Assembly (NCBI GenBank): GCA_016867115.1
Contig: VGKG01000006.1
Span: 1 to 61,093 of the forward strand
DNA: 61,093 nucleotides
From: Candidatus Omnitrophota bacterium
GTDB taxonomy: Bacteria > Omnitrophota > Gorgyraeia > Gygaellales > Profunditerraquicolaceae
Reading direction: 5' to 3'
Numbering within the stretch: the stretch's first letter is position 1; each line of letters begins with the position of its first letter. The position numbers and the translations under genes were made by a program. The notes below the pieces were generated by a model. It searched no databases. It was given only the letters and a program-made list of their open reading frames with translations, and was not told the DNA's origin. This document shows positions 1-20,600 of this stretch, one piece after another.

Positions 1-1431
1 GTGATCATCATCATGGCCATGGTCACGGTGAACCTCTCCAAGGTCGCCCTGATCAAGACCGAGACCTCTAATGCCGCAGATGCCGGAGCCATAGCCGCCG
101 GCTCAGCCATGGCCAGCCTCTTTAACAGCCTGGCCCAGGCTAATTCCTACATGATCACCGCTTATGAGGAGTTTATGGTCGAGGTCAGTGTTTTGTTTAT
201 TGAAGCCGTGGTTGCGTTGGTGACTGCGCAGTTAGAAGTAGCTACGGCCATAACGGAATTTGGTGTCGCAGAAGCGGAGTTAGATGTGGCATTAGCAGAG
301 ATAGGTTCGGCCATAGGTTTGGCGTATGAGCTGCCGGGTGCGGCAGCGCTGGACGCGGCGGCAGCAATCGTTACCCTCGGTGCTGCTGAAGCAGCCCTTG
401 CCTTAGCTGAAACAGCGGTTGCTGCAGCAATAGTAGCGATAGGAGATTTTATCAGTACTATGTGGGGCATCCTTATCTCCGTAACTGCCTTTTACGGCGC
501 CCAGTATTACATCTATTGCAACCTGCGCGATACGGCGGAAGAAGGCCGCTACAGCGCCCTCAAGATGGGGCATGGATATGCCTTCTCTAACAGCGGCACC
601 GCCGGCAAGCTCACTGACTCCCAGAAGGATGATTTCGAGGCCTTCACCGATGCTATCAGCGACGACGATACCCCCGCTGAGACTTATACCTATTCCTGGA
701 GTGACGGACAGGGGAGGGGTCACTCCGTGACCACCAATGTCACCACCCAGCTTCTGGACCATTTTCAGCTGCAGGTGGCGCTCCTGCCCTTTCCGGTGGA
801 AGAAGCGGATTTGATCGCAATTATTACGTTAGCAGAGATTGTCGAGGGTGAGCTGGGTACTGTGGCCGCAACATTCCTGACGATGACGATAAAGCTTGTT
901 CTTGCAGAGATACTCCTTTTTATCGCGGAGATCGTTTTATGGGTGGCCGAAGTCTTTCAGGTCATCTGTTGCGGATGCGGGCCGTGGTGTCCGTATTGCT
1001 GCGCTGCCTGCGCCCTCTGGATCGCCTGGTCTTCTATCGGAGCCGGGCTTTTGGGGGCTGCCGAGGGGCTGGTGGCTGCGGTAGCGGTAACAGTCGCCGC
1101 AAATCTAGTTCTTCTGGGAACGGTGGAAGGGGAGTTGATCGCTCTTGATATCATGGTGGCTGCTGCCTGGGCAGGCCTGGCGCCGGGAGACATCGTGGAT
1201 AGCACCAGCTGCGGGGATGCCTGGACATGGATCATTCTCTGGATGGTTGACCTGGTGCATGACCGCAGGATCTCGGTCAGCTGCGCCCAAAGCCACGGAG
1301 GCGGTGATTACGGCTTCTGGGAGACCACCTATCCGGATACCTATAGCTCTGCCACGGTTGATTTTAGCGGTAACGGGGATATCTATGAGCCGGTGATGCG
1401 TTATGATGCTTCTATAGTCTCGGTAGAATAA
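1..1431 (+). CDS. TadE/TadG-like pilus-associated membrane protein (5' end probably cut)
   Basis: The frame is open from the first base, so the true start probably lies upstream of the window. The N-terminus is hydrophobic and continues into the pattern SNAADAGAIAAGSAMA, which resembles the conserved NAADAAALAGA segment after the single membrane helix in TadE/TadG-type Flp pilus-assembly proteins. Two long Ala/Val/Leu/Ile-rich stretches (about residues 60-165 and 260-385) look membrane-associated. A Cys cluster (CCGCGPWCPYCCAAC) lies near residue 325. The stretches at about 181-470 and 800-950 use more A/T-ending codons than the GC-ending sequence around them, so they may be later insertions or expansions. 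Stop is TAA at 1429-1431, and the next gene starts about 30 bases on. The Tad link rests on the N-terminal pattern and on the pilin-like neighbour. The exact role is unknown. Confidence 0.6.
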   Translation: MIIIMAMVTVNLSKVALIKTETSNAADAGAIAAGSAMASLFNSLAQANSYMITAYEEFMVEVSVLFIEAVVALVTAQLEVATAITEFGVAEAELDVALAEIGSAIGLAYELPGAAALDAAAAIVTLGAAEAALALAETAVAAAIVAIGDFISTMWGILISVTAFYGAQYYIYCNLRDTAEEGRYSALKMGHGYAFSNSGTAGKLTDSQKDDFEAFTDAISDDDTPAETYTYSWSDGQGRGHSVTTNVTTQLLDHFQLQVALLPFPVEEADLIAIITLAEIVEGELGTVAATFLTMTIKLVLAEILLFIAEIVLWVAEVFQVICCGCGPWCPYCCAACALWIAWSSIGAGLLGAAEGLVAAVAVTVAANLVLLGTVEGELIALDIMVAAAWAGLAPGDIVDSTSCGDAWTWIILWMVDLVHDRRISVSCAQSHGGGDYGFWETTYPDTYSSATVDFSGNGDIYEPVMRYDASIVSVE

Positions 1432-1462
1432 AATGGAAAATAATACTCACGGAGGTGCAAAG

Positions 1463-2407
1463 ATGTTTTTCGGGGTAAAGAGAGCAGGGCTGATACTGAT
1501 TGCCGCAATCATACTTTTTTCCGGCATAGATTCGGGTGATGCTGCCCGGTGGGATTCAGGCAGCCTTCCGGTCCCGGCCAAGACCGAGAAGATGAAGGAG
1601 GAGAAGCGGCTGGTAGGAGGAACAGAATACATCTTTACTTATTATTCCAGCAGCCTTGAGCCTGCGGGCGTAAAGGATTTTTACCGCACAAAACTTACTG
1701 CCCTGGGCTGGCAGGAGCGTGATTTCAAGGCTGACCTGGAGAACATAAAAACGATGGCCGCAATCAGGCCGGATGCGTTCAGCAAGATGCTGGAGCAGAA
1801 CCTTATTTTCATTAAGGAGAATAAAAGGATCATCATAAGCTTCATTCCTGAAGGCGCTTCCGGGGCCACGGATAAACGTATCAAGTTCAGTGTCTGCGTG
1901 GGGGATGCTTCTATTCCTAAGGGAGGCCAGAAGGGCTCTGTCCCCGAACTCCTCACTAAGCCTAAAAGGGAAGTGGCGCCGGTATATCCGGGAGCAAAGC
2001 TGGTGAGGGCAACGGAAGACGAGCGCATCTCAAGGCTCGCCTATTTGTCCGGGGATAAGATGGAGAAGATCGCCCGTTTTTACAAGGATAAGATGCCGGC
2101 CCTGGGCTTTAGCCTGGTCAATGAGAAGCCGTTTGAGGAGATCAGCGGTAAAGATACAATGCCTAAGGATTGCCCTACCTGCGCGCAGAAATCGCCTGTC
2201 CCGATGAAGATCGCGATACATAAGCTCAGCTTTATGAACGCCAAGAGAGATACCTGTAATATCGTCCTGACCAAGATCGATCTTCCGGATAACTTTCAGT
2301 CTTTGGCTAAGGGGGTAGAGGATATAGCCAAAGGGCTCGGTGAGACAGTGAGCGTAAAAATGGATTATACGAATATAATGGTAGACTATGAAAAAGCTAA
2401 AAAGTAA
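1463..2407 (+). CDS. Secreted protein with two copies of a YPGAK/FYK-type module
   Basis: The chosen start is ATG 1463 because GGAGG (1451-1455) lies seven bases before it. An upstream in-frame ATG at 1433 has no such site. The 314-residue product opens with a signal peptide (hydrophobic core LILIAAIILFSG, likely cut near GDAA). Two related modules follow. One covers residues ~35-75 (YIFTYYSS...V.DFYRTKL.ALGW). The other covers ~175-225 (APVYPGAKLVRA...Y.SGDKMEKIARFYKDKMPALGF). Both share an aromatic-rich strand, then FY(K/R)xK(L/M)xALG(W/F). A CPTC pair lies near residue 235. I know no function for this module. It overlaps the following pilin-like gene by 20 bases, which suggests translational coupling within the pilus-like operon and a periplasmic or outer-membrane accessory role. 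Confidence 0.75.
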   Translation: MFFGVKRAGLILIAAIILFSGIDSGDAARWDSGSLPVPAKTEKMKEEKRLVGGTEYIFTYYSSSLEPAGVKDFYRTKLTALGWQERDFKADLENIKTMAAIRPDAFSKMLEQNLIFIKENKRIIISFIPEGASGATDKRIKFSVCVGDASIPKGGQKGSVPELLTKPKREVAPVYPGAKLVRATEDERISRLAYLSGDKMEKIARFYKDKMPALGFSLVNEKPFEEISGKDTMPKDCPTCAQKSPVPMKIAIHKLSFMNAKRDTCNIVLTKIDLPDNFQSLAKGVEDIAKGLGETVSVKMDYTNIMVDYEKAKK

Positions 2408-3119
2408 ACGGGCGCAGCACTTGATGGAGTATGCGGTCTTATTTGCGCTGGTAGCGGCAGCGCTGGTAGGGATGCGCGTATTTTTCACCCGCGCAGTGCA
2501 GGAGAAGTTCCGCCAGTCAGCGGATGTCTTTGGCGGCGGGGAGCAGTATTCTCCGGGAAGGACCAGTACTTCCGGTGGCGGCATGAGTCAAGGGATGAGT
2601 GCCGGTTCAGCCAGCAGGAGCTCGGGTTCGGGCTTATCCGGCGGCTCAAGCGGCGAGGCAGGCGGGACTTTTGACTGGCATGACTGGCAGGAGGAGGTCA
2701 CAGAGGAGGTAACAGAGCAGGAGACGGATTGCGCCAGCCTCAATGCCACAGTGAACACCGCAAACAGCCAGATAGGCGAGTTAAACAGCAATATCGCAGA
2801 CCTGGATTCTCAGGTCGTCGAGATGGAGAATTACGAGGCGGAGTTCAGGCAGCGGGCATATATTGCATATCTCTTTGGGACAGAGTGTTCAGGGGAAGAG
2901 TGGGATGAGATGGCGGATGAATTTGATGTGGATCCGGTGAGCCAGAATATACTCGGCCAGAATGTCTACCGCAAAGGCGATCTTTATACGGCGGTTGCCG
3001 ACAGGCTGGATGCGTCAGCTGCAGACTGCCGGACAAGAAGGGCGCAATTAGTGGCCCAGAGAGACGCCCTGCAGCAGACAGTAAACTCAACAAGCTCGGG
3101 TTATCCGGAATGTTTCTAG
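2388..3119 (+). CDS. Flp-type pilin-like protein with a long C-terminal domain
   Basis: The 243-residue product starts MKKLKSKRAQHLMEYAVLF and continues as a hydrophobic helix. A short basic leader, then a Gln/Met-Glu-Tyr sequence at the head of a hydrophobic helix, is the mark of Flp/Fap and type IV pilin-like proteins. The Glu is the usual Glu5-like residue after prepilin cleavage. A Gly/Ser-rich linker covers residues ~45-95. An acidic helical part follows (DCASLNATVNTANSQIGELNS), with Cys residues near 117, 165, 223 and 242 that could form disulphides. Classical Flp pilins are only 50-80 residues, so this is a pilin stalk fused to an extra globular or coiled domain, as in minor or tip pilins. 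The start overlaps the end of the gene before it by 20 bases. The next gene follows 10 bases after the stop. Confidence 0.75.
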   Translation: MKKLKSKRAQHLMEYAVLFALVAAALVGMRVFFTRAVQEKFRQSADVFGGGEQYSPGRTSTSGGGMSQGMSAGSASRSSGSGLSGGSSGEAGGTFDWHDWQEEVTEEVTEQETDCASLNATVNTANSQIGELNSNIADLDSQVVEMENYEAEFRQRAYIAYLFGTECSGEEWDEMADEFDVDPVSQNILGQNVYRKGDLYTAVADRLDASAADCRTRRAQLVAQRDALQQTVNSTSSGYPECF

Positions 3120-3129
3120 AGGAGCTTAA

Positions 3130-6100
3130 ATGAGACATAGCAAATGGACAAAGATGCTCGGGTTTAAGATAGCGGCGGCAAGTATCGCCGGCATCTTTTT
3201 GTTCACTTGCGTCTGCCCTCGCCAGGCCCTGGCTGCCAGAAGCGAGGCAGGCGGCGGGGAACTGGAAGAGTTTGATATCGAAAGGGTCCTCACCAGCGTC
3301 GGGATCTCCATCGGCATCGCCTATGTCGGCAGCCTGATCAGCTCGACCTGGAACGCAGCTACTACGGCAGCGAATGCCGCAAATACCGCGGAAAAAGCCG
3401 TCGAGACGGCAGAGAAGATAGAGAAACAGCTTGAGGCAGCGGAAAAAGCAGGAGAGGCGCTGGAAAAGATCGAGAAGCTCGAGCGGCAGGCGGCACAAGC
3501 TGCCGAGGCAGCTAAGAAAGCGACGGAAGTGGCTTCTAAGACTTCGGTATTGAAGGGAGCCTGGGAGGGAGCGAAAAAGGCGATGTCCCTGAAGAGCATA
3601 CTTAGCACGGTCAGGAATGCCTATAATACCTATGTCGCCACTTATCAGGTCGCCCGGCTGATCGGCGCCATGGGCGCTTACTATGACTGGAGCAACCGGA
3701 CTACTTATATCCTTACTCTGGTAGCATGTGCTGCGGTCGCCGGATTCCTTAACCCCGAGAGCTCAACCGGAAGAGACCTGGATACCCAGCAGACAGTCTA
3801 CACTGACAATCCACAGGTGGCCGAGGCCTTGGGCGGAGAGGGAGCTATTGATACGACCAACCTTTCTCCCGAATATCAGGATATGGTTCAGAGCATGCGT
3901 GATTCGGGCATGACCGATGCCCAGATCAACAGGGGGCTGACTGTTCAATACGGTTCGGATTGGACTAATTACAAAGCCTATAGCATCACGCCTACGCCGA
4001 ATGCTAGCTATGTAGTGCAATACGAACCCAATGCCTCTGCTACGAAGACCTATTTAAATAATGAAGGCATACAGTATTCTTCCGGCACAATGCCTACTGT
4101 GAGCCCTGACGGAGTAACGCTTCAGTCTACGACCACGGTTTCCTCCTCTGGTATAACCTCTGAGCTGACTGTCGGCGGGATCAATTCGGCTAATGTCATT
4201 GTCGCTCCTGCGCGCACGATCTCGGTCTTGCAGCGGTTAGAGGGCGCGGCTATCGGAGCAATGGGCGGAGCAGCCTATGGCGGGGCAGTAGTGGCTATTG
4301 ACGGAGATAAGATCGACGATGATGACGAAGATACTAACCCGGGAGTCGGCGCGCAGATCGCCGGCATCGTTGCCGGTGAGCTGGCTATGAACTTGGGCCG
4401 GACCGTCTTTAACCCGGCGACCTACGATCATAAGACTCTGGGCACATACCAGTCCGAGAATAAGACAGAGGTCCAGAAGACGGCTGCGGCCAATAATACC
4501 GATACCTACGATTTCACCAAGGAGAACTATTACAAGGTTACAGACGTCAGTACTGACGGGATAGCGAAGGTTGACCAGAATACCACCTTAAACAGCGAGT
4601 TCGATTATGAACATCTTTCTCCACGCTATCAGTATCAGCAGTCTGCACCGGGCAGGATCACAGTCACGGATACGCAGGCGGATCTTACTGCCGGTGAGAT
4701 CGCGCTGAATATCGGCAGGGGCACATTCCTGACCACTGCCCAGAACTGGCCTTCTTTAGCTGCTCAATCCGTAGGGGTCTATGCTGCCAGTCGTATAACC
4801 GATGAGGACGATGAAAAGTGGAAACCGCTGGTTAGCGGCCTGGCCCAGGCAGTTACCCAGCCTATATTCAGCGGCACGCAGATGATGGTAGACTGGACAA
4901 ATCCCAGCCTCTATTTCGGGGATAATCAGGATATCATCCAGGCGCGTATAGAGCATGCGCATCAGCTAAGGACCCTGGGCCTGGATAATAAGTCAAACGA
5001 AGTTTATGAAGCTTTGAGCGTTGAGGGCGGAGCAGTTGACCGGTTGGAGTCAGACCTTGCCCGGATCGACGAAATGCCCGCAAGTACAACCGAACAGATC
5101 CAGGCAAGGCAGGCTGAGATCGATGCGGCCTGCAGCCGTTATCTGAATCAGGCAGCTAAAGATACGGGCGTAGACAGGAAAGTGTTAGAGAAAGGGTTCT
5201 GGAAGCCGAGCGCCACCGCGGATCTGGTCACCTTTGATCCGAAACAGGTGCGTGATAATCTTGTCAGCGCTTCTAATGTCGCAGATACGCGGGCGATGAA
5301 AGCGGAATTAGAGCATCTTGCCCGCAGCACCGAACCGACTAGCTGGGCAGATGTGATCCGTAACCGGACCATCTCCGAAATGAGAAGGTTCTATTCCGAA
5401 AGCCCAAGACACCTCGGCAATACTAACGGCCTGGAGGCAGGATTAGAAAGTGTCGGCACAAGCAGGTGGGAATTATTCGCAAACAGCGTCGGACAAAACT
5501 GGAGGAGCGGCATCTTCAGCGCCACAGTTTCAGGCCTGGCCAGCGCCGGGATGAGTAGCTTTACGGATGCGAATAAAAACAGTTCGCTCACCCAGATCGC
5601 CGGTTCTTACGCGGCGAACCAGTTGAGCGCTGCGGTTACCGGCATTGCCCAGTATTACGGCTGGAACCATACGACCAACAAGTGGGACTGGAACAATCAC
5701 CTGGATTTTGTCATGCCTACGCAGTATACGGTCTCACCGCTTAATTCCGATGGCTCAAGAAATCCCAATTTTAATTATGTCCAGTTCAAGTTGGATCAGT
5801 CCAGCTACAGCGACCAGTTGCAGAACTTCTGGAGGTTCGCCGCATTGAACAACTGCGATCCCGGCACCTTTAACCGTTATACCGGAAAATACCACGGCGG
5901 GACAAATATGGCTTATATGCCGCAGGAGACCTGGATCCTGGATAACAGCGCAGACGGCGGCCACTGGGATACCGAGCATCACTGGATCGCCTATGCGCAC
6001 GCAAGCGACCAGCATCCGAGCCTGGCCTTCAGCGTGGCCACCAATATGGCCCAGGCAAATCAGGAATACCTGGCCGGCTTATTGTCTTTCGGCGCGCCGA

Positions 6101-6990
6101 TAATGCGCGACAGCCAGGACAGGTATTCTATAGGCCTTCGGCCTGAGCAGATCAGCCCGCAGACATTCATGAGTTATGTCTTTAATTCCGACACATCGCT
6201 TACCAGCCTTGCCCAGGCAGAAGACGGCATAGAAGGCGTGATCACGACCCTGGCTACCGAAGCAAATAAGAACTCCATTGCCAACAGATGGACGCAGACC
6301 TTCCTGCAGATACCTTATGTGGCATTAGTCACGCATATGCGTCCGGAGAGGCTGGTCATGCGCGAGAACCTGACGGTGGTGGATGAGCCGCTGGCCAAAT
6401 ATACCTATGACCGCAATACCTATGAAAGGATGCAGATAGCCTGGAATGCAGGAGATTATTCGGTCACCGTCTTTGACGGTTACCGCAATCCGCAGATCCA
6501 TGAAAAGTGGGAAGAGGGAGATTTTGTCAAGAATCCGTATTATCCCGAATATGCCCGGATGGACTTTATTCCGGAATCCAAACTCAGCTATTCGGATGAC
6601 CTGGCTTTAGGACTATATTATCAGGATCCGGCCCAGTCTTGGACCTACAGAGGCACGGATAATATTGACTTCACGCAGACCGTAGGCACCCAGCAGCTGC
6701 TTACGCATGAGCTTTCCAATGACGCGATACTGCAGACTTTAAGCTACGGCAGCGGCGCGCCTTTGTTGAATGTTACCTTCTGGTCGCCTTATCCTAATCC
6801 GATGTATTCGCCGGCTTCACAGACCGGTCCGATCTGGCACTTACAGAATAACCTTTCTTCCACGTCTCTTACTCCGGCTCTGCCTCCGGCGCCGTCTAAC
6901 ACGCCTAACATGCCGGATAGCGATTTAAGTACTGGTAGCAGTTATATTGCCGGAACAGGTTCATCTTTTGACAGCGGTTCAATGAATTAA
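3130..6990 (+). CDS. Large secreted protein of the pilus-like operon, function unknown
   Basis: The 1286-residue product has a ribosome binding site AGGAG (3120-3124) and starts six bases after it. The signal peptide is residues 1-35 (AAASIAGIFLFTCVCPRQALA). Residues ~70-140 are an Ala/Glu/Lys heptad-like coiled coil. Two or three weakly hydrophobic helices follow (YILTLVACAAVAGFLNP near 200). The centre repeats a loose module with AGELAMNLGRTVF, AGEIALNIGRGTF and similar sequences (residues ~410-430, ~515-530 and ~785-800). The last 500 residues are Trp/Tyr/Asn-rich and probably beta-rich. The C-terminus is Ser/Gly/Pro-rich. I do not recognise the family. Ten bases separate it from the pilin-like gene, so it is probably co-expressed and exported to the cell surface. 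It ends just before a structured leader with terminator-like elements. Confidence 0.85.
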   Translation: MRHSKWTKMLGFKIAAASIAGIFLFTCVCPRQALAARSEAGGGELEEFDIERVLTSVGISIGIAYVGSLISSTWNAATTAANAANTAEKAVETAEKIEKQLEAAEKAGEALEKIEKLERQAAQAAEAAKKATEVASKTSVLKGAWEGAKKAMSLKSILSTVRNAYNTYVATYQVARLIGAMGAYYDWSNRTTYILTLVACAAVAGFLNPESSTGRDLDTQQTVYTDNPQVAEALGGEGAIDTTNLSPEYQDMVQSMRDSGMTDAQINRGLTVQYGSDWTNYKAYSITPTPNASYVVQYEPNASATKTYLNNEGIQYSSGTMPTVSPDGVTLQSTTTVSSSGITSELTVGGINSANVIVAPARTISVLQRLEGAAIGAMGGAAYGGAVVAIDGDKIDDDDEDTNPGVGAQIAGIVAGELAMNLGRTVFNPATYDHKTLGTYQSENKTEVQKTAAANNTDTYDFTKENYYKVTDVSTDGIAKVDQNTTLNSEFDYEHLSPRYQYQQSAPGRITVTDTQADLTAGEIALNIGRGTFLTTAQNWPSLAAQSVGVYAASRITDEDDEKWKPLVSGLAQAVTQPIFSGTQMMVDWTNPSLYFGDNQDIIQARIEHAHQLRTLGLDNKSNEVYEALSVEGGAVDRLESDLARIDEMPASTTEQIQARQAEIDAACSRYLNQAAKDTGVDRKVLEKGFWKPSATADLVTFDPKQVRDNLVSASNVADTRAMKAELEHLARSTEPTSWADVIRNRTISEMRRFYSESPRHLGNTNGLEAGLESVGTSRWELFANSVGQNWRSGIFSATVSGLASAGMSSFTDANKNSSLTQIAGSYAANQLSAAVTGIAQYYGWNHTTNKWDWNNHLDFVMPTQYTVSPLNSDGSRNPNFNYVQFKLDQSSYSDQLQNFWRFAALNNCDPGTFNRYTGKYHGGTNMAYMPQETWILDNSADGGHWDTEHHWIAYAHASDQHPSLAFSVATNMAQANQEYLAGLLSFGAPIMRDSQDRYSIGLRPEQISPQTFMSYVFNSDTSLTSLAQAEDGIEGVITTLATEANKNSIANRWTQTFLQIPYVALVTHMRPERLVMRENLTVVDEPLAKYTYDRNTYERMQIAWNAGDYSVTVFDGYRNPQIHEKWEEGDFVKNPYYPEYARMDFIPESKLSYSDDLALGLYYQDPAQSWTYRGTDNIDFTQTVGTQQLLTHELSNDAILQTLSYGSGAPLLNVTFWSPYPNPMYSPASQTGPIWHLQNNLSSTSLTPALPPAPSNTPNMPDSDLSTGSSYIAGTGSSFDSGSMN

Positions 6991-7006
6991 TGATCTGATT
7001 TCAAGG

Positions 7007-7083: not shown

Positions 7084-7084
7084 T

Positions 7085-7160
7085 GGCCGGGCTGCTGAAG
7101 GCCTCTTAAGGAGAGAGAAATTTCTTTAAAAGAGCGCCGTAAGCAGCCCGGCCCTTTTTT
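7085..7160 (+). terminator. 12-bp stem with long loop and T tract
   Basis: GGCCGGGCTGCT (7085-7096) pairs perfectly with AGCAGCCCGGCC (7142-7153), followed by C and six T (7155-7160). The 45-base loop is unusually long for a plain intrinsic terminator. It could end transcription of the pilus-like operon or attenuate the next gene. Confidence 0.55.
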
Positions 7161-7180: not shown

Positions 7181-7183
7181 AAA

Positions 7184-9058: not shown

Positions 9059-9640
9059 ATGCCTAGAGCCGCACGAGTCATCCCGCCTGAAGGATTCCTG
9101 CATGTTATCTCAAGAGGCAATAACCGCAGGAAATTATTTCTTAGGCCATCAGATTTCAAAGTTTATCTGCGTCAACTAAGAAAGCTCAAATACGAAGAAT
9201 CAATCAGTGTCTTTCACTACTGTTTGATGCCTACCCACATCCATCTTTTAGTGGGGATTATTCAAAATAGCGATCTCTCCAGATTCATGAAGCGGCTAAA
9301 CCTGAAATATTTTTTCCACTACCAGAAAAGATACGGGTATCTTGGCCATTTATGGCAAGACCGGTTCAAGAGCAAATTAATCGAGTACGATACGTACCTA
9401 GTGCAGTGCGGAAAATATATTGAATTGAATCCGGTGCGGGCAAATCTCGTCAGCTCAGCTGCGGATTATCCTTATTCGAGTTACCGCTATTACGCCTTGG
9501 GGTTTGAGGATAAGCTTATCGATAACGACCCTCTATATTTAGATCTAAGCACTGATGCAGCGCAAAGAAGGTTGATTTATCAGAAGATGCTGCTGGATGA
9601 GATTGCCTGCGAGGAAAAGTTACAGAAGGGCATTTTTTAA
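9059..9640 (+). CDS. REP-associated tyrosine transposase (Y1_Tnp / IS200-like, RAYT)
   Basis: The 193-residue product is a single-strand DNA endonuclease of the HUH superfamily. It carries the RAYT opening PRAARVIPPEGFLHVISRGNNR, the metal-binding HUH motif in LMPTHIHLLV (residues ~58-67), and the nucleophile region IEYDTYLVQCGKYIELNPVRA (~115-135). In this family one Tyr forms the covalent DNA link. YPYSSYRYYALG follows, as usual. The length is normal for the family and I see no frameshift. These enzymes cut and copy short REP palindromes, and several REP-like palindromes lie nearby and within the giant gene. Translation is probably limited by the upstream hairpin. Confidence 0.93.
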   Translation: MPRAARVIPPEGFLHVISRGNNRRKLFLRPSDFKVYLRQLRKLKYEESISVFHYCLMPTHIHLLVGIIQNSDLSRFMKRLNLKYFFHYQKRYGYLGHLWQDRFKSKLIEYDTYLVQCGKYIELNPVRANLVSSAADYPYSSYRYYALGFEDKLIDNDPLYLDLSTDAAQRRLIYQKMLLDEIACEEKLQKGIF

Positions 9641-9659
9641 CCTATGGACTACAATGGGT

Positions 9660-9681
9660 TAGGAAGCGAAGAACCGTCCCC
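9660..9681 (+). repeat. REP-like repeat, copy 1 (AGGAAGCGAAGAACCGTCCC)
   Basis: This is the right boundary of the transposase unit. The same sequence recurs at about 10482 and 11090 with a GTT just before it. Its last 11 bases are the reverse complement of 8834-8844. Confidence 0.65.
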
Positions 9682-9703
9682 ATAGGACTACAAGGAGGTT
9701 AAG

Positions 9704-9871
9704 ATGTTTGATTCCTATGCCATAAGGTTTAACGAAAAGTTAAGAAAAAACAGATGCAGCAGCTGCAAAGGTTGCGATAAGGTTACCTCATCAGAGCAGT
9801 GCCTCTGGCATTGCGATAAGTGGTTCGCATTAAAGGTCAGGCAGGTGTCTTTGCGCCTCAAGCGGAATTAA
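9704..9871 (+). CDS. Small Cys-rich protein, possible metal binder
   Basis: This 55-residue frame starts at ATG 9704 with a strong AAGGAGG binding site (9690-9696) seven bases upstream. The product begins MFDSYAIRFNEKLRKNRCSS and carries five cysteines in the arrangement CxxCxxC, then CLWHC after about ten residues. This could form a small zinc or iron-sulphur site. The good binding site and the Cys pattern favour a real gene. Against it, the frame is short and lies in a mobile-element patch. It could also be the remnant of a longer protein. Confidence 0.45.
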   Translation: MFDSYAIRFNEKLRKNRCSSCKGCDKVTSSEQCLWHCDKWFALKVRQVSLRLKRN

Positions 9872-9900
9872 AGGAACGTCCGAGAAAAAGGGGGATTAAT

Positions 9901-10418
9901 ATGCCGAATACAATGTCAGTTGAGGTAATCACTACCAAGATCTTGTTGATAAGAGGTAGGGGGGTGATGTTGGATAGGGACTTGGCAGAGCTTTATAGAG
10001 TTTCAACTAAGGCTTTAAATCAGAGTAAAGAGGAACATAAAACGTTTCCCTCCAGATTTTATGTTTCAGTTAACAGATAAAGAGAAAAAAGAGGTGGTCA
10101 CAATTTGTGACCACCTTAAATCTCTAGAGTTTTCATATCAACCGCCCTATGCCTTTACTGAACAGGGGGTAGCCATGCTCTCTAGTGTATTGAGAAGCGA
10201 AAGGGCAGCTTAGGTCAACATTCATATTATGCGCCCCTTTACTAAATTGAGAGAGCTATTTCTCACACACAAGGAATTAGCTTTGAAATTGGAAGTCCTG
10301 GAAAAGAAATACGCGCAGCACGATGAGAAGATCCAAGCCATTTTTGAAGCAATCAAACAATTGTTGCAGCCGCCCCAAAGTAGAAGAAAAAAGAATAACC
10401 GGCTTTAGTACAAAGTGA
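9901..10418 (+). pseudogene. ORF6N-domain gene, broken by frameshifts and a stop
   Basis: The reading starts MPNTMSVEVITTKILLIRGR and follows the ORF6N N-terminal domain (MLDRDLAELYRV). Near 10043 the frame changes: bases 10059-10190 continue the domain in the next frame as [14 protein letters not shown] and [16 protein letters not shown]. An in-frame TAG follows at about 10211 where the intact copy has a Val codon. The rest (EVLEKKYAQHDEKIQAIFEAI) matches the usual ORF6N C-terminal coiled part, with another frame change before the end. It is clearly a decayed paralogue of the intact gene at 10527. A truncated 5' protein of about 60 residues could still be made. Confidence 0.85.
10092..10116 (+). 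repeat. Palindrome inside the ORF6N pseudogene
   Basis: AGGTGGTCAC (10092-10101) and GTGACCACCT (10107-10116) are perfect inverted arms around a five-base AATTT loop. The palindrome lies at the same place in the domain as the one in the intact copy, but the arm sequence differs. Confidence 0.8.
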
Positions 10419-10507
10419 TGCAGGGTGAGAGCGGTTAAAATGCAATTGGCCCGTTTGAAACTTTATGTTGTCGGTGGGGTTAGGAAGCGAAGAACCGTCC
10501 CCTAGTT
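10383..10507 (+). repeat. 125-bp direct repeat, copy 1 (tail of the ORF6N pseudogene)
   Basis: This stretch matches 10992-11116 with only two base differences. It covers the last ten or so codons of the gene, about 65 bases of noncoding sequence and a terminal REP-like AGGAAGCGAAGAACCGTCCC. It is far more alike than the coding parts before it. Confidence 0.9.
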
Positions 10508-10526
10508 AAGAAAGGAGGATTTAGAT

Positions 10527-11027
10527 ATGGCTAATAATGTCTCTGTAGAAGTGGTTGCAGCGAAGATTCTGATCATAAGAGGTAAACGAGTGATGTTAGA
10601 TGAAGATCTCGCAAGACTCTATGAAGTAGAGACTAAACAATTAATCCGGCAGGTTAAAAGAAATATTGAAAGATTCCCCGCTGATTTTATGTTTATATTA
10701 ACAAAAGAAGAATATTTGAGGTGCCATTTTGGCACCTCAAAAAGAGGTGGTAGAAGATACCTTCCATATGCTTTTACTCAGGAAGGCGTAGCCATGCTTT
10801 CAAGTGTATTGAATAGCAGAAGGGCTGTATTGGTGAATATCCAAATTATGCGGGCATTTTCTCAGTTGCGGCGCATGCTGTTAGCTAACAGAGATCTTAA
10901 ACGCAAGATTGAAGAAATGGAGAAGAAATACGATAAGCAATTTGCGATTGTCTTCCAGGCAATAAGGCAATTGCTTGCGTCACCTAAATTTGAAGAAAAA
11001 AGAATAACCGGCTTTAGTACAAAGTGA
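10527..11027 (+). CDS. ORF6N-domain (KilA-N-like) DNA-binding protein
   Basis: The 166-residue product starts behind AAAGGAGG (10511-10518). It carries the complete ORF6N pattern: ILIIRGKRVMLDEDLARLYEV (residues ~12-32), then VKRNIERFPADFMFILT, then [19 protein letters not shown]-type sequence (~78-96) and NIQIMRAF. A C-terminal charged helix (EEMEKKYDKQFAIVFQAIRQL) and a short basic KRITGF tail follow. ORF6N domains occur in phage antirepressor-like proteins and in stand-alone genes that are often amplified in genomes. The role is unproven, probably DNA binding. A decayed paralogue lies just upstream. An 11-bp palindrome is built into the coding sequence at codons ~64-72. Confidence 0.9.
   Translation: MANNVSVEVVAAKILIIRGKRVMLDEDLARLYEVETKQLIRQVKRNIERFPADFMFILTKEEYLRCHFGTSKRGGRRYLPYAFTQEGVAMLSSVLNSRRAVLVNIQIMRAFSQLRRMLLANRDLKRKIEEMEKKYDKQFAIVFQAIRQLLASPKFEEKRITGFSTK
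10715..10741 (+). repeat. Palindrome inside the intact ORF6N gene
   Basis: TTTGAGGTGCC (10715-10725) and GGCACCTCAAA (10731-10741) are perfect 11-base arms around the five-base loop ATTTT. They encode LRCHFGTSK, just before the conserved GGRRYLPYAFTQEG. Confidence 0.85.
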
Positions 11028-11116
11028 TGCAGGGTGAGAGCGGTTAAAATGCAATTGGCCCGTTTGTAACTTTATGTTGTCGGTGGAGTTAGGAAGCGAA
11101 GAACCGTCCCCTAGTT
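10992..11116 (+). repeat. 125-bp direct repeat, copy 2 (tail of the intact ORF6N gene)
   Basis: This is the second copy of 10383-10507, 609 bases downstream, with two mismatches. It ends in the third REP-like AGGAAGCGAAGAACCGTCCC. Together the copies show that an ORF6N gene plus tail was duplicated in tandem or copied into place twice. Confidence 0.9.
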
Positions 11117-11266
11117 TTGTCCAATCTGAGTTTAAGCCTTCAAACAAAGAATGTCCAGTCTGAGCATTAGGGACACCCTCCCGATTGATTCAAGGAGCGT
11201 CCCCCGATTGATTCAAAGGATGTCCCTGAGTATTAGAAAACGCTTGCTTGGGGCCTGAAATTATGC
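11117..11266. other. Noncoding stretch with degenerate repeats before the giant-gene promoter
   Basis: I see no gene here. The part up to 11226 holds scattered GTCC(A/C)..CTGAG and AGGGACA fragments that look like decayed REP sequences, plus the tandem 23-bp repeat listed separately. From 11227 to the promoter it is unremarkable. Confidence 0.6.
11181..11226. repeat. Two tandem 23-bp repeats
   Basis: Positions 11181-11203 and 11204-11226 both start CCGATTGATTCAA and end GTCCC. They differ only in the middle (GGAGC against AGGAT). There are two copies with no spacer, so this is not a CRISPR array. It is probably a relic of the REP family. Confidence 0.75.
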
Positions 11267-11296
11267 TTGACATCGACGATGACGCTGTGTTATACT
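11267..11296 (+). promoter_or_regulatory. Near-consensus sigma-70 promoter of the giant gene
   Basis: The -35 element is TTGACA (11267-11272, exact consensus) and the -10 element is TATACT (11291-11296), with an 18-base spacer. Transcription would start near 11303, about 30 bases before the riboswitch aptamer and about 310 bases before the start codon. The position and quality make this the best promoter in the window. Confidence 0.75.
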
Positions 11297-11330
11297 TGTG
11301 TTGCAAATAGAAGGAAAAGCCACGGTTGCG

Positions 11331-11427
11331 ATAAAGGCAAACTCTGAGTAATCAGGGGACGCAAAGCCACGGATCCTACAATTAGAGCCACGTTGAACAA
11401 CCTGTAAAGGATAGCCGGGTTGCCGAA
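11331..11427 (+). ncRNA. Cyclic di-GMP-I riboswitch aptamer (GEMM-I)
   Basis: The sequence carries the GEMM-I hallmarks in order. The P1 5' strand is GGCAAAC (11336-11342). A CTGA-GTAA-TCAG hairpin (11343-11354) follows, with a GNRA-type loop. Next is the invariant GGACGCAAAGCCACGG (about 11357-11372). A second arm closes with ATCCT/AGGAT around a variable loop, then AGCCGGG and the P1 3' strand TTGCC (11420-11424). GGCAA pairs exactly with TTGCC. The base just before CAAAC is G, as in c-di-GMP binders, whereas c-GAMP variants usually change it. The aptamer binds the second messenger that controls adhesion and pili. It lies between a strong promoter and the giant gene, so that gene is almost certainly under c-di-GMP control. 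Confidence 0.92.
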
Positions 11428-11476
11428 TACCGACGATTGTAAGTCAGTATTTGACAATCCGGTTTTTGTTTACAGG
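11401..11476 (+). promoter_or_regulatory. Long-range pairing CCTGTAAA / TTTACAGG across the terminator
   Basis: CCTGTAAA (11401-11408, in the outer arm of the aptamer) is the exact complement of TTTACAGG (11469-11476, just after the T tract). The pairing would bracket the terminator and compete with the aptamer arm. It may be part of the switching mechanism, but eight bases could match by chance, and I cannot tell ON from OFF. Confidence 0.35.
11430..11467 (+). terminator. Intrinsic terminator directly after the riboswitch
   Basis: The left arm CCGACGATTGT (11430-11440) pairs with ACAATCCGG (11454-11462), with a small bulge. TTTTTGTTT (11463-11471) follows. It starts six bases after the aptamer, as expected for a riboswitch that controls by early termination. 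Confidence 0.75.
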
Positions 11477-11613: not shown

Positions 11614-14600
11614 ATGGACGAAGGCGGTTACAAAAAAATCGAAGAAGTGAATCCTGAAGCGGGCGTAGTTGCTATTGAAGCCCCTTTCAAGTCCAGATTT
11701 AAAACCTGGATCAGGGTAGTAGCTTTTGTCGTGGCAGCTGTCTTTCTTCCTGAACAGGTAGCCCAGGCAGTGCAGTATGACTGGCGCGTGATCTGGCGCC
11801 AGCCGGGTGCTGCAACCACGCCTCTTATGCCCGGGGCAATGCCTCCTTTAAGCGGCATTGATGTCGCCCTCTCCGTAAAAAATATCCTCAAAGACGTTGC
11901 CAATAAACCGGTTACAGATATTCAGCTCTCCCCTGAAGTCGCCCTGCATTTAGACCAGCCCCTGAAAATGTCCAGCCAAAGGATAGAAGAGATTTACAAC
12001 TGGCTGAAAGGTAAACCCTGCGGCGCCAAGGCGCTCTTTGATTTCTTGAAGTTTAAAGGTAGTGCTGCCCAGGAAGCGGATATCGCAGTCATGGCCCTGA
12101 CCATTGATATCTTAAACGGCGTGGTCAGGCCCGAAGGCGACCCCAAGGTGATCAAGAGCTCATTATTCGCGCTGGCTAAGACCTCAGAGTTTTTCGGACA
12201 GAAATTATCTGCAGTCAAAACAGATTTAAATGATCTGGCAGAGAGAGCGCCCTTCATCGCGCACTTAAAGAGCGAGCACTATGTTTTAGTCACCCGCATC
12301 ACCAAAGACAAGGTCTACTATAGCGAAGAGCATAAAGAAGAGTTCCTGCCCAGAGAAAAGTTCCTCAATGAGTTTACAGGATACGCCCTGGTCTTAAATC
12401 CCGAAGAGTCCTTTACCAAAGTCCCGGAGAGCGAAGCCAAGAGCGTAAAAGGCGCAGGCAAATACTCAACCGGCGCAAGCTGGAATGACGGCGCAGGAGA
12501 CTACAATACCGGTTCTTATTCGGTGCCTGCCGGCTATTCCATGCCGCAGATGCCGAGTTTCTCCACTACCAATATCACCCCCACCTATTACTTCCCGACT
12601 GACATGAACATCAATAGCGCCGGTTTTATGGATACTACGGGAAACTTCATTAATCCGGCAGCTATCGGTTTTACTTCCATGCCTGAAGTGAGCAATGTGG
12701 ATACTTACCAGACGCACAGCGAGCCGGTCTGGTTCCACAATGGCTTTGACGGAGCAAGCTTCCACCATGATTCTAGTATGGCGCAGCAGATTGATCCGGT
12801 TTATATCAACGGCTTAGGCCTCCAGCCAGACCAGGTAACCAAGACTGGCCGCGACATGGAGGTGCGTAATGGCGCAGGCACGGTAGTAGATACCCGTCCG
12901 ATCTATCAGACCTCAACCGGCATGGAACTGACCTATTCCACGGTCCAGACCAAGGATTTTCTCAACGAGAACCTTTATGCTACAGCCAATCCTGAATCCG
13001 GCCTGCCTAAGGCGTCGGATTACTGGAAGAATCCTAATGACCCGATCTCTAATTCCTCCATGACCTACGGTGCCTATGAAGCAGGCCCGGATAACAAATA
13101 TGTGGTCATGACCATGGATAACCCGAACCAGCACCACCACTGGAACTATATGGCCGGCGCCTATATTCAGCCCGGGGATGTATTGGTCACTACCGGTAAT
13201 GACGGTTCAGCCAACCAGGCCCTCTCCGGCTTTGGCGCAGATGTAAATGCCCAGCAATACAATTATCATACGGATAAAGGGTCCTATCAGTTCAGGGTAG
13301 GAAGTAACGGGAATCTGGCCTTTGACCCTAACCAGAACGATCACGGCCGCATCAATGGCTTTACTGATAATCTGGCTACTTCAGCCCAGTTAGGCGCAGC
13401 CAACTATATCGCTAACAGCACGCAGACTGACCTGGTGATCAAAGGCCAGAGCGGGGTGAATGCGGATGGCATAGGCACAAGCGGCGGCTGGGTAGAGGGC
13501 TGGGTTTCTACCGGAGCTACTGCACTTACTGCATCCGGAGAAGACCGAAGAGGCTATCTGGGAGACCGGACATTCAATAACACCGTAACCACCCCTGACG
13601 GCCAGAGTTTTGACCAGACTGCTTCCTTTACCGGAAACACCTATATGCATTTTGAAGAAGGACAGGCTGCCACAGGCCAGGTCGGAAATGGAAGCCACTA
13701 TCAGACCGGCGATTTAGGCCCTTATAATTTTACCGGTTTTGACTTTGCCTCAAAGCAGGTTGACGGCACTGCTTACTATACCCCGCTTTTAGAGACAGAG
13801 AAAGGCGCTAAGTTTAAGTTCGGCACTAACCAAATAGAGCAGATCCTGCCGGCAATGCCCAGGAACCTTACTACTGTTGATGATTTCAATAAACTACCCA
13901 GCACTCAGGATCCGTCTGATCTCCGCAGGGATTTCCGCGCCCTAAGGGATAGCCAGCCGTTAGGCGCAACTATCGCAGGCGAAGGTTATACCGGTATCGC
14001 GACTGCCGGAGATGATGGCATGCACATCGGTTTTGGCCTTTATGACGGCAGCATGAACTTAGGCCAGGGCCTTTATTACGATGTAGCTGACCTTAATCGC
14101 CACCTGGAGTTCACCGGCAACCTGAAGATGGATGTTTCAGATTCATACCAGGGCGGAAAAGTTGCGACCTACTCTTACAATTTCGGCACCACTGATCCTA
14201 CCCGGCCCGGATATTTCGGCCATGACTCCCGCAACCAGCTGAACTGGTTCAATATGGACGCCCGTTTTGCCTATGACCAGGGCAAGTATTATGCCTATTC
14301 AGAGGTTGTCAATGACCCGACAGGTAAAGACCTGACCCGCGACCAGGCGCTCCTGCGCAACCACTTCATCAATAACCCGGATATCTTAGGCAGCGCAGAC
14401 ATGTCCGGGAACTGGGAGTGGCAGATCATGTCTGACCGCATTGATCCCGCGACCATGTCCGTAGTTTCGCAGGACTACTTAAAAGGAAATAAGGATCCTG
14501 TGGCAACCAGCCTTGGCTTATTAGTCGAGCATAATAAACAGCTTTATTTCCAGGAGACCTTTGATGTCAGTGCTTCGGCATACGAATTGATGGGCAAGGC

Positions 14601-17600
14601 AAGCATTGACCCCAGAAGCGTTGACCATGAGCGGCTGCTGGCTTCGGGCGAGTTCATGAAAGCAGCCGGCGATGTGCAGCCCCTGCAGCAGGAAATCATC
14701 ACCCCTACCATGGATAATTATGAGGCAGTCGTAGATTTAGCCTATCAGACCGGTGATTTAGACTTAATAGACAGGGCTGAGACGGTTAGAGACACCTTTG
14801 CCGAAATGAAGGACTTGGCTCCGGAGTATCTGAAGGTCAGGGAGAGAGAAATTGAGTTGACTGCCCAGAATAATAGATTAGAAGGTGAGTTGTCCAGGAT
14901 GTCTAAGGATGGAGTATCTCAAACTGATCCAAAGTGGCAGGCCAAATTGCAGGAGCAGCAGGGGATCCGCCAACAGCTAGAAGGGCCGGAAGGAGTCTGG
15001 GCAAAGAGAGATGCCCTGGAGTTACAAGAGCCCATCCTGCCCACCATGTTCCAGGATTCCACAGCACTCCTGGGCGAATTGAACAAGAATATTTACTCTG
15101 CGGATACGCTCTTTGGCGACCAGCAGGGCGCAAGAGACCTTTATAACAGCCGCAGCCAGATACATACCAGCCCGGTTTCAGCCAGCCTTCTCAGCCCCGA
15201 GAACAGGGAAGGCTCCAAGGCTACCCCGCGTAACGAAGCCATTGCCAGCATAAACTTCGGCTACAACAATGACCCGCACCTGGCCTTAGCCAGCTTAGGC
15301 GACGGCGCGCTCACCCACTGGGATCCTTTATCCGGACGCACAGACCTGGGCCAGGGCTTGAGGGTGAATGTCTATGACCAGGGCTATAGAGTGGATTTAT
15401 CCGGCACTGCACAGTATGGCTGGTCTATCCCCTATAAGGATGCCGCCGGTAAAGCCCGCAATTATGACGTGGATGTAGTCGCCCGCTTTGGCGACGGCGC
15501 CAACTACGCTTTAGCCCACGGCAACCCGCGCCTTAATTACGGAGTGATGCAGGATTTAAGCCGGACTACCACCGAAGGCAAGGCGCCGGTCCTGCCGAAC
15601 CTGGAGGTTTCTTTCTCCGCAGCCCCTAAAGACTACCTGCAATACGTCAATGACAACAGCGACCTCTTCAGCGGTTTTGTGAGTATTCCTTTTGATAAGC
15701 CGAACCTTTATTTTACCGTTAGCGGAGAAGCATTCCTCGGATTAGAGAGCGCAAAGAAAGACGTTGCCGGCGTAGGCCTGAATAATAACGGCATGGCCAC
15801 CCTTGAGTATATGTGGAATCCTGCGGGTGAAGGCAGCTTACAGCACATTAATACCAGAGACGGGACATTAACGGATAGTACGGTTGCCGCTGCTTACTGG
15901 GTCAATCCTTATATGGATAGGAAGGATGAAGGAAAGTTAAGCCGCGTAGACATCTTAGAAAAATTAGGGGATAGTGAATTCAGGACTTATATTGACCAAC
16001 TTAAGACAAAATACAAAGATTCCGAAGCGTTAAATACAGCCTTGGATCAGGTCCTCCAGTTACCCAGGCAGGAGGGGTCTAAGAAGTTAGTCGAGCTTAT
16101 CGGCGAAAATAACCTGCGCCTGATAAATCCTGATGGTTCAATGAGGGATCCTCTGGAAGCTGCTGGCCTCTTTTATGACGGAGTGCGGAAGGTCTCCAGA
16201 GAAGCCTCCTATGATGCAGAGATCCAGGGCCATTACGGCGGTTTATTCCGCATGCTTCCGCAGCAGGCACCGGAGATCTGGGCGCCGGTGGCAGGAGGAG
16301 CAGGACAGGATGCGCTTAACCCGGCCGGCAAATCCAGGACCCGTACTTCTGCTTCAGAGCCCGAAGTAGTCTTACGCTCTTCTGACATGCCGGATGGCTT
16401 CAGCGGCCCGGACTTTGAGATCATGAAGGGCAGGGACAGCTGGCTTGGCCATATCTGGGACCGTTATTCTGACGGCGGGAAGTTCAAGTTCAGCGGGCCC
16501 GGCTATGAAGGCGACGGCTGGTGGAAATATGAATCAGGATTTGATCTTTACAGGATGGTGCCTTTTGCTCCGGGAATACCCGGCCTGAATACGCCCGGTA
16601 CGCTCCCCGGAACCGGAACAGCCCAGGACCCGCGCCTGACCAGAGACCAGTCAATCTCCAAGCAGCTGAATGATTTTGCCCAGAACCGTCCGGCCAACCT
16701 TGAGCCTTACAATTTCGGTAACGGCGTAGTCTCCGGCCCCAGATATGGCCGCGCTGAGATTACCATTAAAGAATCTTTCAGCCCCTGGCAGCATGCTATG
16801 GGGCTACAGGATAGGACCCAGTCTGTTCTTTCTATCTGGAGATATGATGTGGATGGCCAGAAGCCTGCGCCGGCGCTTGCTACGTTTGTACCCAAGATCG
16901 CTAATCCTGATTCACTAAAGGTGCAGAATCCGCAGGCAGCCAGCGCATTCAATGCCAGCCAACTCAACTTTGACGTAAAGACCCTCTTCAGGGATCCTTT
17001 AAGCACAGATTTTGAACCCTGGGATATCAATACTTCCTCGTTCCTCTTTAAATCTCCTATTCCGGATATTGATCTGTTTGGCATGTCAAATCCTTTCACT
17101 CAGGATCTGAGTCAGCCGTTTGATCCGGTGCCGAAACTGGACTCAGTACTTTCGCCCTCAACAAATGAAATATTCAATGCTGCCGGCCCGTTCAGCATTA
17201 CCTTGGATCAGCTCACGCATTTCGGCCAGATGAATGTACACGGCCAGAACGTGCCTTATTTCTCTTTTGCTCCGCGTTCAGGCGACGGAGAATCCCCTGA
17301 TCCGGCTGCCGGTTCAGTCGGCGTCAGCCCGATTTTCGATGCCAGTAACAAACAAAGATTCGATGTCTTCTCTACCTATACTTTAGGCAATTTTGATAAG
17401 AACAGCCGCATCTTCACCGCAGATAAATTCGGTTTCAATATCCCCAATGGCCAGCTCTCCAACACCAACTTCTTCAATTACCAGCAGTACGTTTCTCTTC
17501 CGGCGTCAGGAAGAGACCTGACCAAACCCGACAACTGGGCGCCGTTAGGCCTGACCGGACATCTCTGGGAATGGGCTCCGGGCAGCGTGATCGACGTAGA

Positions 17601-20600
17601 GATGAAGACAGTCAAAGGCGAAGACGGCAAAGAAAACAGATTCAGAGTTTTAAAATATAGCGCTGACACCCTGGCTAGCCCTGTTTTCACTGAGATAGGC
17701 AAGGTGCAGGAGGCATTAGACAGAGATAAGAATGCTAAGCCGACTGATCCGGTTACGGGAAGGCTTTATGAGTACTATAAAGTAGCCGGAGATGATGCGG
17801 TATTTATGCGCGCAACTACCGTAAACCAGAATACCCCTCTTGACGAGCAAACTTTCGTTTTTAAGAGGGATAACGGAGAAACGGTCACCATCAAGACAGG
17901 GAAGATAAAGCGCGAAAACGGCGAAGAGGGATTCGAGAGTTTAAGCGATGCCGCCTTCAGGCAGAATATAAAGTTATCCGAGTCTGAATATTCCCGGCTG
18001 CTGAATGAAAACAGGGACTTGCTTACAGAGGAGTTCGGCGTCTGGAAACCGACGGAACAGACGTTGGCCGAACATGAGATTTCCGCCGGACCGTTAACTT
18101 ATTATCCTGATGCTACTAAGAGAGAGAAGAGCCTGGATATCGCTTTCCGGCAGGTCAGATGGGATAAGCAGCTAGGCATGGTTTATACCTTCGGCGACGC
18201 GGCAAAGAATAACGGCCTGGCAGATGAGTTCATGCCTGTACCGCTGGCTAATAATCCGATGGATGACAGCCGCGATGTCTTTATGCAGGGGCTGGTCACT
18301 GCCATCCAGGACTGGTGCAAGAAAAACAATAAGCCAGGCATAAACGACATTCCGAACCTTTCCGCCTTAGGCCTTGACCTCACCAGATTTAAAGGGATCA
18401 CCGCGGAACAGGCGAACCGCATGTTCTTTGAGCTGCAGTCTAATCCCGACAAGATTAATAAAGAGTTGGCCAAATCCGGCGAGCAGAGATTTACGGATGC
18501 CTATGTGAATTCGCTCCGGGCTGCCGGTGCAACGGATATAAATGGCGAACTGGCTAAAAAAATAGCCGCACCTTCGGCTGCGAATTTCGGCTTAGATGAG
18601 AAGAAGGCGGAGGAATTACTGGCCGGCATCAGGCAGAATGCTACTGCGACGAATGAAAAGTTGCGCAAGGCCGCGATCAATCCCGATTTCGATTCTTACC
18701 TCAATGTCGTGATGCCTAAGCCGGGGAGCATAGTGGTAGCCGGAGAGACTAAGGAATTATTGGTCGATGCTACCGGCGTTGATTCAAGGAAAGAGGTCGG
18801 CTCAAGGAGGGTCAGCTTTGTCAATCAGTGGGATTCTAACACTATGCAGTCCACCTTAGGCCTGCCGGGGACCCGTTTTGACCTGCCCCGCACATCAAAA
18901 TACAGCTCCTACTTTGAGGCAGTGAATATAGCCACTCCTATTCTCGCTGATTACCCATTATCTTATACGCCTTTTAAGGCCCATGTAGAAAGTGTATTCG
19001 CCGATATCCAGGCTGCCGGGCTTACCTTTATCGGCAGAGACGGCACAGAAAGGACCTTCTTTGGCGGCGGCCTTAATATCGATATCGATCCTAAGCACGG
19101 TATTGTCATGGATGCAGGCACCGGGATGCTGGAGAGAGTGTACGTCATCCCCTTACCGGGAAGTAATCCGCAGGCCGGAGATTCCCACATCACGGTAAGG
19201 GTGAATTACCATAAGCAGGACCTCCTGGGCATATTCTATAAAGTAGCCGGAGATTCGGATTTTGTGCCGTACTCGCAATTTGCCGCCAAGTTGATCGGCA
19301 AAGAAATAGATACCCTCGGCACTTATGTCCTGGATGATATACCTTCGGTGGATGCAGCGATCAATAACACCCAGAAGCTGCTTAATCTGCTGAGGTTCGT
19401 CAGCCGCTTATCTGAGAAAGAGAGAGGGGCGTTAAGGCCCATATTAAATGAGCTCTCCCGCGTTGTGCTTAATGAAGAGGCGATGAAGAAGGGGCGTTAT
19501 TCCTCGATCTACTATTACCTCAATAACCTTCCGGAGATGGCTATTCAGCCTAAAGATGTCCGCGCCTGGACCGATGCGGACCTGGCTACTTTAAAGAACG
19601 CCATACGCTCCAAGTTGAGCCCGATCAATCAGGTGCAGTTTGATAGCATTTTGGGCGCTGGGCAGGATAATGCTCTCATCGCCCAGAACCTGACCGCATT
19701 TATCATGGCCCTGATGCATCCGGAGTCTACAGGCACGGACCTTAAAAGGATGAGTGAATTTGAGCAGATGCAGGTGCTTAGAGATGCCCGTAATTTCCTG
19801 ACTGACCATCCCGGGGGGGCCATCACCTTCAACGAACAGAAGAATACCAGCTACATCGTGACTGCGGATGCGCCGGTGACCGCAGACGGAAGCCTGCCGA
19901 ACTGGTATATCAGAAGCGGCAATGATTGGGTGCTGGCCGGCGGCACTGCCCACGGGTTAGGCCAGATCACCCAGACCGTGACCTCCTCCTTATTCCCCCA
20001 GAAACCGCAGCAATTCAGGGTAGAGCTGAATAATTTTATCCTCCCCTCTAATGGCAGCGGAAGGCTCTCTGAGTCCGCTTTTACCGGCGCCGGCAGGTAC
20101 TGGGATTTCAATTCTCCTTTCAGCATGCAATACCGGGAGAGTAAAGGCACAGGTTACTCCGAAGCCCAAAGGCTGGCTACCTACGCCAGGGTAAGCTCCC
20201 GCGGCATCTTCGACGCGCGTGATTTCTTCGGCGGCGTGGTCTTTAGCACAGAGAAACCCGGAGATAGGCTGGTCTTCTCCCTGAGCAATGACCTGATCCC
20301 CATGCTCTATTACCGCACTGCCCTGAACGGCAAGGACGGTTCAATATTGCGGTTTGCCGCGGATGACCTATTTATCGCTAACAGCGTAATCAATACAGAG
20401 AAAGCCAAGCTTCTTGAGCAGGCCTTTGTCTTTGCCCATGGCGCAAATCCCAGCCTCTCCTTCCGCATAGACGATAAGGGCAGAGTGGTGGCGAATTACG
20501 TGGACTTAGGCAAGAACATCACCTCCCATTTTGAGGCCGGAGAAATCGCCGAAGGCCCGAATAAGGGACAGACCATCGGAAAATACGATGTGGTAGAAGT

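Follow-up and report, generated by a model that had tools for sequence, protein, structure and literature searches.

The Omnitrophota are tiny, little-known bacteria, and the locus analysed here raises the question of whether a group of pilus-like genes and the giant gene lying downstream encode one contact apparatus, as a sequence-only reading of the DNA had proposed. The window, that is, the whole stretch of DNA analysed, is an entire contig (C6, 61,093 bp) of a 1.47 Mb genome in 52 contigs. For the function of bacterial giant genes, a conserved Tad neighbour, a C39 start and a defined switch offer testable handles.

Organization of the Tad Pilus Locus

Four closely spaced genes on the plus strand occupy positions 1–6990 (Table 1). 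From tadG through P0002, P0003 and P0004, the gaps or overlaps do not exceed about 20 bases, an operon-like spacing. The first 127 bases of the window are identical to the end of contig C27 (overlap of exactly 127 bp), which carries, in order, two Flp-like pilin genes, tadB, tadC, two tadE-like genes and tadG, the last continuing into the window. C27 was taken as the upstream side because the tadG frame runs through the overlap and tadG is whole in relatives. A Tad pilus operon thus has its 3′ (distal) end in positions 1–6990. The tad assembly genes to be looked for just upstream were found as tadB, tadC and tadE on the overlapping contig.

The protein previously described as TadE/G-like appears to be a TadG, truncated where the contig begins. 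This partial protein had no match in Pfam; the TadG proteins of relatives G027 and G011 scored above the cut-off for the Pfam Tad family PF13400. TadB and TadC matched T2SSF (PF00482) with 68.9 and 49.5 bits (cut-off 25.2). TadE2 reached 17.1 bits against a TadE cut-off of 22.9, and TadE1 gave no TadE match in the profile search. One of the two Flp pilins matched the class III signal profile exactly at its cut-off (23.7 bits, cut-off 23.7) and Flp_Fap with 20.2 bits (cut-off 32.2), while the second had no profile match. A TadA ATPase fused to TadZ (62% to the fusion protein of G011) and an RcpA-type secretin (47% to its G011 counterpart, itself above the PF00263 cut-off) lie off the window's contig, on contig C8 of the same genome (G000). 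The single prepilin peptidase match (PF01478, 71.5 bits) is on C7 and is a candidate partner of the Tad system.

The same reading had noted two secreted proteins of no known family and a pilin fused to an extra domain, and both descriptions were borne out. P0002 and P0004, whose signal peptides were recognized by eye, had no match above Pfam or NCBIfam cut-offs. The predicted structure of P0002 comprises two alpha/beta domains with modest confidence (mean pLDDT 69), for which Foldseek returned no solved relative at E < 0.001; assignment to a known family, sought with Pfam on nine members and with Foldseek, yielded nothing convincing. The N-terminus of P0003 is class-III-pilin-like (AQHLM-EY, by eye) and is followed by a linker and a coiled coil. 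Its Pfam matches were to coiled-coil families only, all sub-threshold, and its relative in G010 matched Flp_Fap with 17.1 bits, below the cut-off of 32.2. Relatives of P0004 were present in 4 of 58 genomes (own counted), that of G027 having a C-terminal Peptidase_M23 domain.

The pilus-like genes had been placed just before the giant gene. They do belong to the same locus and lie upstream, but P0005 and a mobile insertion intervene after position 6990. A hairpin with a U-run also parts P0004 from the downstream genes, which counts against the one-apparatus reading. Another known riboswitch at 6991–7183 was considered and rejected, all matches there falling below their cut-offs. The mobile insertion additionally holds a decayed second ORF6N copy and repeats of 26 and 134 nt. 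At other loci, a gene resembling ORF6N (L163) or a transposase of similar kind (L133, L136) was seen by eye close to the giant gene.

Table 1. Features of the window, with positions counted from its first base.
Feature	Position	Strand	Remarks
TadG-like pilus protein (P0001)	1..1431	+	5′ end lost at contig edge, start on C27
P0002	1433..2407	+	Secreted (by eye), two alpha/beta domains, recurs behind tadG
P0003	2388..3119	+	Flp-like pilin N-terminus and coiled-coil domain
P0004	3130..6990	+	Large secreted protein (by eye)
Hairpin and U-run	7084..7160	+	Strong, likely terminator or attenuator, 3′ of P0004
P0005	7184..8827	+	Partial paralogue of giant protein, 43% identity to giant aa 280–476
Mobile insertion	about 9059..11147	+	Y1 transposase, ORF6N gene, remnants, repeats
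Y1 transposase of REP type	9059..9640	+	Inside mobile insertion
ORF6N gene	10527..11027	+	Inside mobile insertion
Promoter-like site of giant gene	11267..11296	+	TTGACA-18-TATACT
c-di-GMP-I (GGC) riboswitch aptamer (predicted)	11327..11428	+	RF03167, 68.1 bits, cut-off 59
Aptamer 3′ strand	11415..11424	+	Alternative pairing with U-run arm possible
Arm and U-run	11453..11467	+	Able to compete with aptamer
Giant gene	11614..61092	+	Incomplete; frame open to contig end over 16,493 aa
C39 peptidase-like domain of giant protein	11941..12408	+	After signal-peptide-like stretch

The Giant Protein and Its C39 Domain

The giant gene is incomplete, since the window ends as a whole contig at 61,093 bp. 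Known domains are few in its product. The C39 domain matched PF03412 with 42.6 bits (cut-off 22), its structure was predicted mostly at pLDDT > 85, and the nearest solved fold was the PCAT protease (Foldseek, 6mpz, E 1.2e-5). All 22 aligned rows, the window among them, share Cys136 and His222; the presumed third catalytic position varies across rows and is Glu in the window. Fold and invariant Cys/His are shared with the C39 double-glycine peptidases of the PCAT and ComA transporters. The C39 domain described here differs from these in lying close to the N-terminus of a giant protein, after a signal-peptide-like stretch, and in the variable third catalytic position; unlike in PCAT and ComA, no ABC transporter was seen with it. 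The frame of the giant gene stays open for 57,756 codons in G010 (G010:C2:22852 onward) and for 42,913 in G040. In G010, a riboswitch precedes a P0004-like gene that directly adjoins the giant gene.

At four loci (L150, L155, L156 and L161), the giant start lies 166–244 nt behind tadC, as might be the case for a component of the pilus machine. The giant protein might accordingly be a substrate or stalk of that machine, passing through its secretin. We consider this quite unlikely, since the giant N-terminus resembles, by eye, a Sec signal peptide and not a class III pilin signal, and the 13 hydrophobic segments found by a simple hydropathy scan in the 16,493 residues suit membrane anchoring.

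Linkage of Tad and Giant Genes Across Omnitrophota

The giant N-terminus was detected in 24 of 58 genomes (own counted). A scan of database genomes gave 69 loci with giant genes of the same start, comprising a signal-peptide-like stretch and a C39 fold; P0005 (L070) is excluded from this set. The records are Omnitrophota, except for two titled 'bacterium' and one titled 'Planctomycetales', so that the window most likely comes from an Omnitrophota genome. The 'Planctomycetales' entry (L146) is probably a misnamed record, as it matches G005:C42, from the window's own family. N-terminal domains at the loci show 29–61% identity to the query.

Among the 44 loci for which 8 kb or more of upstream sequence exists, 42 carry Tad genes upstream in the same orientation as the giant gene, and none of the 44 carries them upstream on the opposite strand. 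The gene order is thus kept in relatives, as the sequence-only reading had asked to be checked. At least two Tad core genes were present in 40/44 loci; L136, counted among the 42, has TadA-like ATPases only, and L109 has part of tadC only. Regarding the two exceptions, a 2,573-aa frame takes up most of the upstream stretch in L130, and in L131 the tad genes are further upstream on the corresponding contig G048:C37. L098 and L142 correspond in length to the reference contigs G027:C169 and G009:C22 and match by construction; 42 loci with at least 8 kb are left without them. The genes between the Tad core and the giant gene vary among loci. The giant gene as a chance neighbour was rejected on the order kept at 42/44 loci.

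At the genome level, 23 of the 24 genomes in which the giant N-terminus was detected (own counted) have tadC, versus 16 of 34 without it (Fisher's test, p = 6e-5). In those 16, the genomes being incomplete, tadC occurred with no giant N-terminus detected, and several giant contigs of the 58-genome set end too soon to show upstream genes. The Tad core co-occurs with giant genes in relatives, and P0002–P0004 behave differently: P0002 was found in 17, P0003 in 6 and P0004 in 5 of the 44 loci with sufficient upstream sequence, or in 15, 5 and 3 of 42 when the two reference loci are removed. The Tad core tracks the giant gene, while P0002–P0004 are rarer partners and not general ones.

A Predicted c-di-GMP Riboswitch Upstream of the Giant Gene

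Control of the giant gene by c-di-GMP had been suggested, and a riboswitch is indeed predicted in front of it, above the family cut-off (Table 1). A covariance model built from 22 riboswitches, some of them preceding giant genes (model R1), was used to scan the 69 loci. It placed an aptamer 59–185 nt (median 169) upstream of the giant start in 43/69 loci, or in 43 of the 67 with more than 300 nt upstream, giving 44 leaders together with the window; the other 24 of the 67 had no riboswitch near the giant start. By Rfam alone, at E ≤ 0.001, a riboswitch was found in 15 of 27 loci of the 58-genome set. L070, L072 and L075 were outside the Rfam scan, the last two being second pieces of scanned loci. 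When presence of the riboswitch was mapped onto a quick tree with 70 rows, it changed 8 times, compared with 21 in shuffles.

Of the 44 leaders, 42 have a promoter site matching at least 10 of 12 bases in the 80 nt that precede the aptamer, L101 and L103 lacking it. Shuffled sequences reached the same score in 219 of 9000 cases and stretches nearby in 9 of 432, a control covering 45 aptamers of the 69-locus set without the window. Over the whole region, promoter-like sites were no commoner than chance (12 versus 11.9). TTGACA recurs in the U-run arm, where it may mark an internal promoter, with no clear −10 element behind it in a column table of 37 of the 44 sequences.

Next to the aptamer, on its downstream side, lie a conserved arm and then a U-run; the arm is able to base-pair with the aptamer 3′ strand. 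Across the 44 leaders, the pairing of arms with their own aptamers exceeded all 10,000 permutations, a result flattered by the choice of each best-pairing arm in a test that also ignores relatedness. Own arms paired at 8.36 of 10 positions and foreign ones at 8.13, a slight gain. One arm position covaries (T-A in 24, C-G in 13 and others in 7 of the 44), and a C-A mismatch occupies one of the ten positions in 38/44. In an unconstrained fold of the window's leader, the U-run was paired within a longer hairpin. Two other terminator scans gave weaker results: a stem-loop search located a hairpin in roughly half of the 44 leaders, frequently well away from the aptamer, and an exact-overlap scan gave 17/44 against 6.3 expected; the arm test was used in place of both. 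A recurring CTTA-TAAG-like stretch was seen by eye behind the U-run at riboswitch loci.

The ability of the U-run arm to pair with the aptamer 3′ strand suggests an ON switch. This direction is likely, and it is graded no higher because of the small gain of own over foreign arms, the mismatch in 38/44 and the placement of the U-run in a longer hairpin. The leader also holds additional conserved sequence and a further terminator-like hairpin at 11555–11578, as might be expected if the riboswitch were an OFF switch or acted on translation. We judge that alternative unlikely, given that pairing of a U-run arm with the aptamer's own 3′ strand is the usual design of an ON switch.

Predicted Riboswitches Upstream of the Pilin Genes

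The genome's own pilin genes are likewise preceded by a predicted c-di-GMP-I riboswitch (RF01051, 48.9 bits, cut-off 35). Fifteen regions before pilin genes were scanned, the majority being intervals that separate flp from a conserved HTH/coiled-coil gene, and eight gave a c-di-GMP-I match at E ≤ 1. Only four (G035, G000, G042 and G027) exceeded a family cut-off, that of RF01051; G040 scored 47.2 against the RF03167 cut-off of 59, and G010, G011 and G039 were weaker. A promoter site of at least 10 was present within 90 nt in 7 of the 8 matched regions, and these 7 also have, judged by eye, a putative U-run arm that could pair with the end of the aptamer. The gene before the pilins (L015, 5262–8699, minus strand) has an HTH-like N-terminus, a long coiled coil and a conserved C-terminus; it was found in 27 of 40 genomes (own counted) and belongs to no Pfam family.

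Similar switches on the pilins and the giant gene bear on whether linkage reflects shared function. The two might simply be co-inherited, the giant protein being an independent surface coat or defence protein. Its few known domains would fit such a role, and giant genes of the riboswitch type, having their own promoter, do not require co-expression with tad. This reading appears rather unlikely in view of the similar switches and of an order and strand kept at 42/44 loci despite divergent N-termini and variable genes between.

Proposed Mechanism and Comparison with Known Systems

We consider it probable that the Tad pilus and the linked giant gene, under c-di-GMP ON switches, act together in attachment. 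The sequence basis of this model covers gene order, protein families, the C39 fold and the conservation of riboswitch, promoter and arm; the direction of the switch, export, surface location and contact role are what we infer. The giant gene is a linked member of the Tad locus, kept there across Omnitrophota, and in the window's lineage it is preceded by a promoter-like site, a predicted c-di-GMP-I riboswitch and a U-run hairpin with an arm able to pair with the aptamer. High c-di-GMP would hold the aptamer and prevent the terminator, turning transcription of the giant gene on, and the similar switch before the flp pilins would boost pilus gene expression in parallel. The signal peptide would direct export of the giant product, placing the C39 peptidase domain outside the cytoplasm, and the protein would act with the Tad pilus in attachment to another cell, possibly in prey contact. 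Most likely, c-di-GMP would raise both pilus and giant protein on meeting another cell.

Of the proposed single contact apparatus, the association of pilus and giant gene is backed by the Tad–giant linkage and the pilin riboswitch, but P0002–P0004 do not belong to it generally, and that the parts form one apparatus is again something we infer. More tentatively, Omnitrophota may have a widespread contact apparatus that deploys a Tad pilus together with a giant protein, whose length can reach tens of thousands of residues and which has an exported C39 start, c-di-GMP switching on both in a large clade through similar promoter–riboswitch–terminator modules. The giant-gene switch can be tested on short DNA in a laboratory strain, without culturing the organism.

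Type IV pili are under c-di-GMP riboswitch control in Clostridioides difficile; to our knowledge, no giant gene belongs to its c-di-GMP riboswitch regulon. That regulon is reported to have several riboswitches on surface-related genes (PMC6200980), a trait shared with the present genome, and differs in phylum and pilus class.

Velamenicoccus archaeovorus LiM has both a Tad system and a giant ORF. In the available part of the article on LiM (PMC10066038), the Tad locus is given as 12382–29832, and in the present analysis the giant ORF (L161) runs from about 29,826 in the same record, its start 244 nt behind tadC, as in the linkage described here. There, Tad and giant ORFs are treated as separate traits, peptides of the giant ORF are 3-fold up in attached cells, a role in predation is cited as proposed, and the main text contains no mention of c-di-GMP or a riboswitch (PMC10066038). 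In V. archaeovorus, no riboswitch scored above cut-off; the two sub-cut-off matches are both more than 1 Mb away. The giant genes of Omnitrophota reported by West-Roberts et al., as cited in PMC12057145, are of the same phylum and size class, to which the present loci add the shared signal-peptide and C39 start, the Tad linkage and the riboswitch. A term search in PMC13153191 returned nothing. The literature search returned no paper joining c-di-GMP, riboswitch and Omnitrophota, and none joining c-di-GMP, riboswitch and giant gene. Among the hits listed, titles and the starts of abstracts described neither Tad–giant adjacency nor riboswitch control of a giant gene; an earlier mention is possible, Kizina et al. 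2022 and bioRxiv preprints lying outside the search.

Further c-di-GMP Elements in the Genome

Nine GGDEF matches were found in the genome. A gene for an exoprotein with a TPS domain and FG-GAP repeats (L015, 9016–12580, plus strand), which is oriented divergently to the tad operon and runs off its contig, also has a predicted c-di-GMP-I riboswitch in front of it. The genome contains three further c-di-GMP riboswitch matches at other sites, one with a score below its cut-off. By eye, the genes behind the riboswitches of L180, L181 and L182 code for a secreted protein of FG-GAP-like type, a glycosidase-like product and a large secreted protein.
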